Shown here one piece after another: positions 46,401-50,013 of a DNA stretch of 64,000 bases (position 1 is its first letter; the number at the start of each line of letters is the position of its first letter). The DNA lies in the NCBI RefSeq assembly GCF_048128805.1, contig NC_136010.1:28755980-28819979 (forward strand). Reading direction: 5' to 3'. Under the pieces are notes generated by a model. That model did not search any database, was not told the DNA's origin, and saw nothing but the letters and a program-made list of their open reading frames with translations. This stretch comes from Centroberyx gerrardi. Taxonomy: Eukaryota; Chordata; Actinopteri; Beryciformes; Berycidae. A program made the translations under genes and the position numbers.

Positions 46401-49400
46401 CAGTTCATTTGAGTCGAACTAAAGGATACATTATGGATGATTTTAATCGGTCGGTCCTCGGTCTAGGTCAGAGGAGGTAAGGTAGAGCCAGGAAACGCAG
46501 TGTCAGGAAAAGACAAGGCAGAATATATGGATCTTCACGTTTTCAGAAGAGGAAAAAGGTAGGATATGGACTTGGCTGGTAGCTTCAAGGTTAGATGCCT
46601 ACAAGCTACAGCTAAAAACTTAATGTTTCCAAACGCAAAATGGCTTGTCAGACATTTTTTAAAGACTTTGAGCTTTGCTAAAGTCAATATAATGTTGGAT
46701 CACTGTAGACAAAATGTCACTATTTCTTTTCAGTGTGCCAGCTGGTTAGTCAGTTTGCTACTGAAGTATATCATGTCAGGTTCATCCTCCCATTCAGCTC
46801 TATTTATGTGGGCTGCTGAACATTAAATGCAAATACTAATTCCGTTCACATGAAACGTCTATATTATTTTCTACTTCAGACATTGTTTGCCTTAAACGTG
46901 AGAAAATATGTGTAAAAATGTATTTTGAATTTGTGCTGCTCTATTTACACCCATGTATGTTCATGTGAAATTGCACCAGATTGATGCATTTTGCTGAAAT
47001 GTAAAAAAGGCTCTGTAGCTTCCTCTGGTCAGAGCCCCTGGTGAAGTTATTAACCTCATTCTGTTTGATGTTCTCTGATCCTCTGTAGCCTCCTGCTGTT
47101 TGTAGATGAAGCTGATGCGTTCCTGCGTAAGCGAGCCACTGTGAGTTCAGCAGCCGAGCCATATGCATGATGATCATGGTATGTGTTTTAATCATATATT
47201 CATGACTCATGATTTCTGCATTGCAGGAGAAAATCAGCGAGGACCTCAGAGCCACCCTCAATGCATTCCTTTACCGCACCGGGGAGCAGAGCAACAAGTC
47301 GGTATCTTACATTATTCAATGTGCGCGGCGGTGCGTGAAAAGGTCATTGCCGTGACTGAAAAGGTCACCGGCTGGATGTTAGTAATCCCGTTTTCTCTCC
47401 TCAGGTTCATGCTGGTGCTTGCCAGTAACCAACCAGAACAGTTTGATTGGGCCATAAACGACCGTATCGATGAGATAGTCAACTTTGCCCTGCCAGGGCT
47501 GGCGGAGAGGGAGCGATTGGTGCGCCTATACTTTGACAAATTTGTGCTGGGTCCCGCCACTGCAGGGAGACAGTGAGTATACTTGTTTCAGCAATAGTGC
47601 TCCTGCTATTTCCGTGTTGCAGAAGTGATTTACTCCAGCAAGGAAAGCATTGGTCCCTAGGGGTCGCCTTACTAGCTCAAGTTGCATAATGACATGCATA
47701 ATGTGTTCAGTCCTGACACTGATATGGTGCCTGAGTCTTATACACTGCTTTCATGAAATGGTGTTTAAGTCCTCTGGGAGTAGTACAGTAACTGTATCAG
47801 ATCGCGTTGGCCAGTTGGAAACATTTTAATATATAGATGATCAATGATAGGATATAAGTTAAGATCCCAAGGCTCACTTACTCCTTTGCATTAACTCAAC
47901 AGGAGACTGAAGTTGGCTCAGTTTGACTATGGACAGAAGTGTTCAGACATTGCAAATCGAGCAGAAGGCATGTCTGGTCGTGAAATCTCCAAACTTGGTG
48001 TGGCCTGGCAGGTGAGTAGAGAGGACTATTGACACAAAATATGACATTGATTAGAAGAAAATTCAAAGCCAATCCTCTTTTTTTTTTTTTTATTTGTTTT
48101 CCTTGAAGGCTGCGGCATACTCCTCAGAAGATGGAGTTCTGACCGAAGCAATGATTGACTCAAGAGTTGATGACGCCATCAAGCAGCATGCACAGAAAAT
48201 GGATTGGCTGCTGATGGAAGCAGGGGAAGGGGTTGGCAAGATCGGAGTAGTTCTCCCTAAGGAAACAGCTGCAGCAGTTACCCTTGGGTTTACAGCCCAG
48301 GAAGCTGCTTCACTTGCCCAAACTGAAGATACAGCCCCAACCATCCAACAAGTCCTTCCACTAGTCGAGGCCGTGATCACCAGTGCCCAGGCAGCAACGG
48401 CAGCTGAACCAGTGGAGGTGGAAGCAGATGCTATCCTCAAAGAGGCAGCCACCTTGGTTAAAGAGAGTGAAGTTGCTGCTTCTGTTGTTGCTGAGACAAC
48501 TGCAGTAGCTCCAAAATCCGAAGAGGCAGAACCAATCGAAACCATTGTTGAGACGGCCAGTGCTGCCCCATTGGTGCAGGAGGTTGAGACCATCAAGGAT
48601 CTGACTGAGGAGGTTCTAGGGGCATCTATAGTTACAGAGACCGTTGTGCCTGAGGTGAAGGAGATAACCACCGAGGTGCAAGAGGCTGAGGCCCTCCCGG
48701 CTTCCACTGTCCAGGAAACTGCTGAGGCCATTGTCTCTGATGTTGTGCAGGAGCCAGAGGCTACAGTGGCTGCAATCTCTCAGGAGACCGTTGTCCAAGT
48801 ATCTGAGTCAGCAGCCACCTCTGATGGTGTAGTAACTGAACCCATCACTGCTGCTGAGGTGCTAGCAACTGATGCTGTGAAGGAGGCACAGGCAATTGCA
48901 ACCAGTGTTGCTCAAGTGGCAGAATCACTGACAACCATTGTTAAGGAGGCTGAGGCCATAGCAACTGATGTGGCTAAGGTAGCTGATGTTGTAGTAACCG
49001 TGGCAGAAGAGATGGAGGCAGCAGTCACCAAGGAGGTTGAAGCTATGGAAAGTGAAATTGCCTTGGAAGCCGAGTCTAAAGCACCAGAGGTTACTAAGGA
49101 GGCTGAGGCAGCAGCGACAGATGCGGCGATGGAGACAGAGACTGTGGAGATTGTGACCGAAGTTGAAGCCGTAGCAACAGAGATTGCCAAGGAGGTTGAA
49201 GCCGTAGCAACAGAGGTTGCCAAGGAGGTTGAAGCCGTAGCAACAGAGATTGCCAAGGAGGCGGAGACTGCAGCTACAGAGGTTGCCAAGGAGGTTGAAG
49301 CCGTAGCAATAGAGGTTGCCAAGGAAGCTGAAGCTGAAGCCGTAGCAACAGAGGTTGCCAAGGAAGCTGAAGCCGTAGCAACAGAGCTTGCCAAGGAAGC

Positions 49401-50013
49401 TGAAGCTGTAGCAACAGAGGTTGCCAAGAAGGTTGAAGCTGTAGCAACAGAGGTTGTCAAGGAGGCTGAAGCCGTAACACCAAATGTTGGCAAGGAGTTG
49501 GAGACTGTGGCTACAGAGGTTGCCAAGGAAGCTGAAGCCGTAGCAGCAGAGGTTGCCAAGGAGACTGATGCCGTAGCAACAGAGGTTGCCAAGGAGGCGG
49601 AGACTGCAGCTACAGAGGTTGCCAAGGAAGCTGAAGCCGTAGCAACAGAGGTTGCCATGGAGTCTGAGACTGTAGCTACTGAGGTTGTGAACGAGCCTAT
49701 GACTACTGAGGTTGCTAGCGAGAAAGCTGAAGCCATAGCAACAGAGGTTGCCAAGGAGGTAGAGGCTATAATAACTGAAGTCACTGAGGAGGCAGACACA
49801 GCAGCTATTCCTGACATAGCAACAAAAGTTGATGCAGACACTGTCATTTCAAAATACTCAGAGACACATGAAAGTCCAGCCACCAAGCAGTCAGTTGCTA
49901 CTCAAACTGCCAACACTCAGGAGGCTGAAACCAGCAAAACTGAGGACCCTGCTTCAAACAAACAGAATGGAGATGGTGACAAAGCACCAGCCCACCCTAG
50001 TCCAAAGAAATGA
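40419..50013 (+). CDS. ATAD3: ATPase family AAA domain-containing protein 3 with ~600-residue C-terminal extension
   Basis: Sixteen exons join to 1172 residues: 40419-40623, 41773-41849, 41939-42040, 42223-42282, 42368-42437, 43273-43438, 43602-43671, 43894-44049, 45336-45392, 45513-45638, 46021-46145, 47089-47140, 47227-47297, 47405-47572, 47903-48011, 48109-50013. The order is [10 protein letters not shown] start, Gly/Pro-rich segment, [20 protein letters not shown], coiled coil (residues ~70-235), membrane segment [14 protein letters not shown] (~252-266), Walker A GPPGTGKT (352-359), Walker [12 protein letters not shown] (~406-416) and sensor segment [14 protein letters not shown]. Conserved sequence ends near KMDWLL (571), where human ATAD3A stops at 586. 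Here the frame continues about 600 residues, with 11-residue A/E/V/T/K repeats. The family anchors mitochondrial nucleoids and cristae at the inner membrane, with the AAA domain in the matrix. The gene converges on TMEM240, as in human. Confidence 0.95.
40795..41190. repeat. Inverted-repeat (MITE-like) element, family 1, copy 4
   Basis: It lies in ATAD3 intron 1, 170 bases after the first exon. The core CTTTAATTCGGCATACACC followed by ATTTCAACTTTTAGAATTGG matches copies 1 and 3. The right arm, GTGTTTGCCGATAAGCAAGG then GTTTGGCGAGACGTTCTCTC, matches copies 1 and 2. Confidence 0.6.
42891..43097. repeat. Long near-perfect palindrome (fold-back element) in ATAD3 intron 5
   Basis: Arms of about 88 bases (42891-42978 and 43009-43097) are almost exact reverse complements around a 30-base centre. 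Arm words include CCAAACCCAAATCTGTGTAA, GGTAAAAAGCATGCTACTG and CCATCTGCTATTGGCTGATC. It would form a long hairpin in RNA or single-stranded DNA. It has no coding capacity and is probably a fold-back transposon or MITE. Confidence 0.9.
43767..43855. repeat. Partial family B terminal-inverted-repeat element
   Basis: GGGATGGGATGATATATCGA followed by CGTATCGTGGGGCAGAAAAA matches the left quarter of the element at 21062-21433. It ends about 40 bases before the ATAD3 exon at 43894. Confidence 0.6.
44050..45335 (+). other. ATAD3 intron 8
   Basis: I see no exon or recognised repeat in this 1.3-kb intron. A T-run (45323-45333) forms the polypyrimidine tract of the next acceptor. Confidence 0.4.
46146..47088 (+). 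other. ATAD3 intron 11
   Basis: No exon or recognised mobile element is seen. This intron separates the Walker A/B-linking exon from the Walker B exon. Confidence 0.4.
49163..49668 (+). repeat. ATAD3: 33-nt coding minisatellite in the last ATAD3 exon
   Basis: About 15 contiguous units of 33 nt encode variants of the 11-mer [11 protein letters not shown]. At DNA level GTAGCAACAGAGGTTGCCAA recurs repeatedly with GAGGTTGAAGCC or GAAGCTGAAGCC between. One 6-nt insertion (EAEAEA) breaks the period. Looser units continue on both sides (about 48940-49790). The frame is kept throughout, and substitutions are often conservative. Confidence 0.9.

Follow-up and report, generated by a model that had tools for sequence, protein, structure and literature searches.

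How does an ATAD3-family ATPase of a fish come to end in a tail of about 600 residues, is that tail made, and what might it do? The question is raised by a gene on the plus strand of a 64,000-nucleotide stretch of the Centroberyx gerrardi genome (contig NC_136010.1, positions 28,755,980 to 28,819,979 of assembly GCF_048128805.1; the whole stretch is called the window, and coordinates are counted within it), in which a sequence-only reading had described an ATAD3 gene with an in-frame C-terminal extension of about 600 residues and a total length of 1172. Splicing of 16 exons with GT/AG borders (40419-50013), drawn with human ATAD3A as a guide, gives 1172 codons and a stop, with no internal stop, which bears out the extension, the total and the coordinates assigned to them. 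That reading had overlooked that the middle of the tail is a 33-bp (11-codon) tandem array, in effect a coding minisatellite, and that the gene has a short-tailed paralogue. We lean towards the view that the tail is a translated, acidic and loosely constrained spacer or brush arm, which would have grown by in-frame repeats from an ancestral short tail.

Judged by its domains, the window gene is an ATAD3-family AAA ATPase: within residues 1-573, Pfam detects ATAD3_N (PF12037, E 3.8e-108, residues 40-286) and AAA (PF00004, E 6e-22), and the Walker A sequence GPPGTGKT occupies residues 352-359, as had been claimed from the sequence alone. The tail comprises the 599 residues that follow KMDWLL (568-573), that is, residues 574-1172, all encoded by the last exon. 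The gene and the parts of its tail are arranged as follows.

40419..48011, plus strand: ATAD3 exons 1-15 with introns, residues 1-538, ATAD3_N and AAA domains (splice reconstruction and Pfam)
48109..50013, plus strand: last exon (16), an open frame for residues 539-1172 and the stop TGA, with the acceptor GAAG before 48109
48214..48594, plus strand: N-terminal part of the tail, residues 574-700, with 7 Pro and without period 11; the beginning of the paralogue's short tail is collinear with it
48595..48849, plus strand: weak 11-residue trend, residues 701-785 (identity autocorrelation)
48850..49170, plus strand: decayed 11-residue units, residues 786-892, with 0 Gly and 1 Pro
49164..49687, plus strand: 33-bp tandem array, 15.7 copies with 81% matches (Tandem Repeats Finder), with an 11-residue protein consensus
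49672..50010, plus strand: C-terminal part of the tail, residues 1060-1172, few units and then an end containing Pro, Ser and Lys
50061..50066, plus strand: ATTAAA, candidate polyadenylation signal by pattern match only, 48 bases past the stop and followed by GT-rich sequence

The composition of the tail is the one first described, rich in Ala (22.7%), Glu (19.4%), Val (15.0%), Thr (12.0%) and Lys (6.3%) and almost free of aromatics, with one Phe and one Tyr. Acidic residues outnumber basic ones by 133 to 38 (net charge -95), and the grand average of hydropathy (GRAVY) is 0.02 for the whole tail and 0.05 for the array. Residues 865-1067 form a nearly unbroken stretch of 203 residues with only one Pro and one Gly. 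The canonical LC3 motif, [WFY]xx[LIV], was the sole pattern sought in residues 561-1172 and was not found there.

The repeat is strongest in the middle of the tail and fades on both sides. Scanned greedily for non-overlapping units that match at 6 or more of 11 positions, the tail yields 21, of which 16 match at 8 positions or more; none of 100 shuffles of the tail yields more than 8 units. Residues 884-1070 reach a lag-11 identity of 0.67, and the shuffle 95% level there is 0.28. In residues 701-800, 801-883 and 1071-1172 lag 11 is the top or joint top in identity, yet under the shuffle 95% level, and among these three stretches hydropathy at lag 11 passes that level only in 801-883 (0.36 versus 0.33, behind lags 21 and 7); in residues 574-700 autocorrelation gives no lag-11 signal. 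With three phase shifts, the decayed units (residues 786-892) agree with the cyclic consensus at 56% of positions, whereas 100 shuffles average 42% and never exceed 51%. Self-similarity of the array DNA spans about 48943 to 49807, and exact repeats of up to 43 bp, lying 336 bp apart in the tail DNA, suggest recent exchange. The array is thus fresh in its middle and decayed on its upstream side. Its phase is broken in places, for example by a 2-residue insertion (948-949) between the units at 937 and 950. When the array DNA was searched against the window's own assembly (779 Mb, 278 contigs, the scope of all genome-wide searches here), it matched only inside the last exon, a result in which absence of a match does not prove rarity, and an array borrowed from elsewhere in the genome was rejected because its DNA matched this exon alone. 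Five of the seven genome matches to the tail fall on three other contigs (C2, C3 and C7) and were read as other minisatellites, alike in period or composition, and not as relatives; viral contigs yielded no relatives, with three stretches fitting a pattern and none confirmed.

Since the 33-bp unit lets an array grow without loss of frame, and keeps the frame open by construction, the argument that the tail is coding rests on its non-array parts and on its continuity with ATAD3. About 424 open codons of the tail lie outside the array, and dinucleotide shuffles were never open in frame, whether of 48220-50010 or of the pre-array part 48220-49137 (0 of 500 in each case), by which a chance open frame is rejected for the non-array parts, while the array by itself proves little. 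The alternative is that transcripts end or splice earlier, that the tail is made rarely or never and that its frame is open as a side effect of composition and repeats. Such an origin would fit the open 33-bp arrays without a known gene that this genome contains, as well as two minus-strand open frames in the same DNA, of 329 residues (48912-49901) and 307 residues (48925-49848), which are probably themselves a by-product of the codon composition of the tail. It fits poorly with the absence of any stop before 50011 in the exon for the conserved AAA end, with the open non-array parts, with the lack of any GTRAG donor-like site in 48151-50013, and with a substitution bias in frame, the ratio of nonsynonymous to synonymous differences per site (pN/pS) among 16 units being 0.41 in frame versus 0.61 and 0.87 in the shifted frames. 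We consider a tail that is not made to be quite improbable, and the tail is probably translated as part of ATAD3.

The genome itself supplies a control for open frames within arrays, and a negative one: at 1846-2786 of locus L009 (C2:32425000-32430000) lies a perfectly periodic but unrelated 33-bp minisatellite in which three plus frames and one minus frame are open and which has no known gene. Two further loci, L011 on C3 and L012 on C7, hold minisatellites mostly of 33-bp period, and L010 on C2 holds an array without that period.

Most of the length of the tail appears to be specific to the window copy. Scoring of 14 of 14 candidates gave 6 ATAD3_N matches, which are confined to two loci. 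The second, on contig C5, is an intact ATAD3 gene of 690 residues with 16 exons as in the window copy. The cores of the two proteins agree at 497 of 570 aligned residues, with a nonsynonymous divergence (dN) of 0.08 and a synonymous divergence (dS) of about 2.0, the latter near saturation. The last exon of the C5 copy extends only 120 residues past KMDWL, into a tail that is rich in Glu, Ala, Pro and Gly, has a net charge of -14 and has a lag-11 identity of 0.05. Neither copy ends where human ATAD3A, with whose presumed end the window protein is compared, would end. Aligned with each other, the two tails have in common GFT and an AP..Q.V pattern at the start, which is suggestive. A short C-terminal tail was probably ancestral, before the duplication, a claim made from position. 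An open frame with a SUZ domain (2072-2404, plus strand), from a gene that we take to be SZRD1-like, has a 68% identical copy upstream of the C5 ATAD3 gene on the same strand, and the distance from SUZ gene to ATAD3 at the two loci is 38 and 48 kb; that this neighbour was duplicated alongside ATAD3 fits an old block or whole-genome duplication.

According to the account that we favour, the ATAD3 gene of this lineage would already have encoded, ahead of its duplication, a tail of perhaps 120 residues past the AAA domain. Tandem duplication and unequal exchange would then, in the window copy, have turned one 11-codon stretch of that tail into 16 or more good units besides the decayed ones, and the resulting arm would be acidic, rich in Ala, Glu and Val, and prone to form helix. 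If ATAD3 has the assembly generally described for it, the AAA ring would be surrounded by six of these arms reaching into the matrix, where each would most likely act as a flexible or conditionally helical spacer or brush, loosely constrained in length and outside the ATPase mechanism. The open frame, the repeat, the sister copy and the amphipathic pattern are observed, whereas we infer translation, the ancestral short tail, the matrix location, the helix in vivo and the spacer role, the last of which is the least demanding role for such an arm. Coding minisatellites in protein tails grow in tandem by multiples of three within one exon, and the window tail differs from them only in that its host gene is ATAD3. 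Why the tail is long, why it has an array that the sister copy lacks and why its units decay along a gradient are all explained by in-frame repeat growth in a terminal-exon tail that was already tolerated.

Extensions at the C-terminus of ATAD3 have precedents. Human ATAD3B became longer by 62 residues when the original stop codon mutated (PMC11599198), and there too one paralogue of a duplicated gene bears the extension, although it is about ten times shorter and the LC3 motif was not found in the window tail. While the C-terminus of ATAD3A is placed in the matrix in one review (PMC11599198), where the hexamer is given as a prediction, another states that the ATAD3B C-terminus is normally in the intermembrane space and, when exposed, recruits LC3 in mitophagy (PMC12765899), so that the membrane side of this terminus is not beyond dispute. 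Plasmodium ATAD3 has about 100 extra C-terminal residues (PMC13249166), likewise a lineage-specific extension after the AAA domain, but in an unrelated lineage and with no mention of an 11-residue array in the portion of that paper available to us. Beside these known cases, the 11-residue array tail would be a new variant. Among the titles listed from open-licence literature, none dealt with a long tail on fish ATAD3, which is no proof of its being unpublished, and the portion of a zebrafish paper available to us (PMC12001410) gives no length for the protein. The tail had been called the best candidate for undescribed biology in the window, which is too strong, as repeat growth in a tolerant tail is the simplest explanation and other ATAD3 extensions exist.

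The shape of the unit invites more demanding roles. Hydrophobic residues of the consensus are spaced 4-4-3 (V1, V5, A9), as in a "3-11" amphipathic helix, a type described together with 11-mer repeats in PMC6164224. On a 3-11 wheel the order is V1 V5 A9 A2 A6 / E10 T3 K7 A11 E4 E8, a smooth hydrophobic face with Glu at both borders. The hydrophobic moment, taken as a mean over 33-residue windows, is 0.302 for residues 893-1059 and 0.261 for 786-892 (0 of 1000 shuffles as high in each), 0.215 for 701-800 (7 of 1000) and ordinary in 574-700 (445 of 1000) and 1060-1172 (224 of 1000). AlphaFold2 run without an alignment on residues 862-1092 models almost all of them as helix with a mean predicted local distance difference test score (pLDDT) of 73.6, which is weak evidence in that Ala/Glu-rich sequence is easily called helix. 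The arm had been proposed to be helical and to stand behind the AAA domain, and we judge both its helical propensity and its attachment there to be right.

We asked what the decayed units would look like had a repeat unit simply decayed neutrally to the observed identity (500 runs). Conservation of hydrophobic and polar class is ordinary under such decay (247 of 500), and selection on the amphipathic face was rejected as unsupported, the moment lying within the simulation. Gly and Pro were counted in four settings, at 56% and 75% identity without bias and then at both with AT bias; the decayed units contain 1 such residue, whereas the simulated means are 8.2, 4.8, 5.2 and 3.0, and counts as low arise in 0, 15, 19 and 89 of 500 runs, respectively. 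In the fresh array Gly or Pro accounts for 2 of 26 substitutions, where about 18% would be expected from one-step mutation. The direction of these figures suggests that helix breakers were purged, how strongly varying with mutation bias and with the ancestry that is assumed, and the depletion lends mild support to a translated helical tail and none to a selected lipid face.

Several of the results weigh against the account that we favour. AlphaFold2 models the whole last exon poorly (pLDDT 47), and the moment of 0.261 in the decayed units is reached by neutral decay in 196 of 500 runs. The depletion of Gly and Pro weakens in the AT-biased, less decayed setting (the 89 of 500), and no clear excess of helix-forming residues emerges, their number being ordinary in all settings but the third (counts as high arise in 74, 410, 29 and 362 of 500 runs). 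The similarity of the two tails is not significant, shuffles scoring as high in 129 of 2000 cases for the N-terminal part, 270 of 2000 for the C-terminal part and 1836 of 2000 for the middle, which is why a shared ancestral tail is claimed from position. Shared 24-mer pairs in the tail always lie a multiple of 3 apart (127 of 127), but so do 6492 of 6492 in the unrelated perfect array on C2, 4899 of 5161 on C3 and 837 of 1075 on C7, which makes the offsets weak evidence of coding; and open 33-bp arrays without a known gene do occur elsewhere in this genome.

Among the alternatives, a lipid-contacting arm seems to us rather unlikely; in it the array, like perilipin 4 (Plin4), alpha-synuclein or apolipoproteins, would fold as a long 3-11 amphipathic helix on a membrane surface and so tether the ATAD3 ring to the inner membrane. 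Its hydrophobic face (V-V-A-A-A) is suitable, and the moment of 0.302 falls within the range of published lipid-binding helices (Plin4 0.257, alpha-synuclein 0.30, apolipoprotein A-I 0.39; PMC5889406), in a table computed by a somewhat different procedure. A Pfam scan of the tail up to E 1, in which matches above about 0.1 are mostly filtered, returned only Apolipoprotein (E 0.05, 13.7 bits versus a cut-off of 90) and reported no perilipin match. The 20 PDB sequences listed as matches (E 0.0012 to 0.32) are 2 designed helical proteins, 17 apolipoproteins (E 0.011 to 0.32) and 1 GntR regulator. As homology these matches were rejected in favour of a composition effect, and apolipoprotein matches are expected from any such repeat. 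Perilipin 4 and the tail are alike in the 11-residue period, the 3-11 helix, the near absence of aromatics and a comparable moment. In contrast, Plin4 is net positive, binds lipid droplets and has units conserved as 33-mers (PMC5889406), whereas the window tail is acidic (about -2 per unit on a polar face bordered by Glu on both sides), keeps its units as 11-mers and sits on a mitochondrial AAA ATPase; in addition, the moment of its old units is no higher than under neutral decay. With Glu on both edges of the face, contact with anionic membranes is disfavoured as a form of the lipid contact first suggested for the arm, and a DNA-contacting arm, suggested at the same time, is unlikely given a net charge of -95.

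The 4-4-3 spacing is also the hendecad pattern, and the six tails of one ring, or tails of different rings, could form a stalk or cross-bridge by pairing through a hendecad core (V, V, A). The nearly unbroken residues 865-1067 and the helix of the single-chain AlphaFold2 model of the array piece would be compatible with such a coiled coil, but its Ala-rich core should be weak, its Glu flanks should repel each other in a parallel bundle and its register is interrupted by phase breaks such as that at 948-949, so that we regard it as unlikely. A bolder proposal, to which we give slightly less credence, is that duplication produced a second kind of ATAD3, in which a ring bears six very long 11-residue-repeat helices that extend into the matrix, fold only when they touch one another or the inner membrane, and govern the spacing or packing of cristae or nucleoids; arm length would be tunable by 33-bp copy number and hence variable among individuals and species. 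Least probable of all, and in our opinion very improbable, is a matrix protectant borne by ATAD3 as a molecular shield. Group 3 LEA proteins do consist of contiguous 11-residue helix-prone units, and 11-mer motifs occur in a LEA protein of tardigrade mitochondria (PMC4326354), a setting that the tail would share. The window tail, however, is not hydrophilic overall (GRAVY 0.05 for the array versus -0.94 for the tardigrade protein in PMC4326354) and gave no LEA_4 match in the Pfam scan up to E 1, whose filters drop most matches above about 0.1.

If the tail is translated, this fish would provide a natural experiment in which a single animal has one ATAD3 copy with a long arm and another without it, and both the tolerance and the role of the C-terminal end of a poorly understood ATPase would become directly testable. 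Natural length variants are expected of a coding minisatellite in such a tail. Conversely, if this is mere tolerated repeat growth, it serves as a warning against inferring function from the length of such tails.

Other features of the gene and the window were observed. Downstream of ATTAAA lie four further hexamers of polyadenylation type, up to 51345. The donor of intron 13 (GTCGGT, 47298-47303) is weak, and the C5 copy has GTAAAT at that place. Intron 5 contains an inverted repeat (42889-43099) with 93-nt arms that are 95% complementary and 25 nt apart, perhaps an element resembling a miniature inverted-repeat transposable element or an intronic hairpin. At 9515-10585 (plus strand), the DDE_Tnp_1_7 transposase family, presumably piggyBac-like, is matched by two adjoining open frames of different register, at profile positions 25-153 and 155-337.

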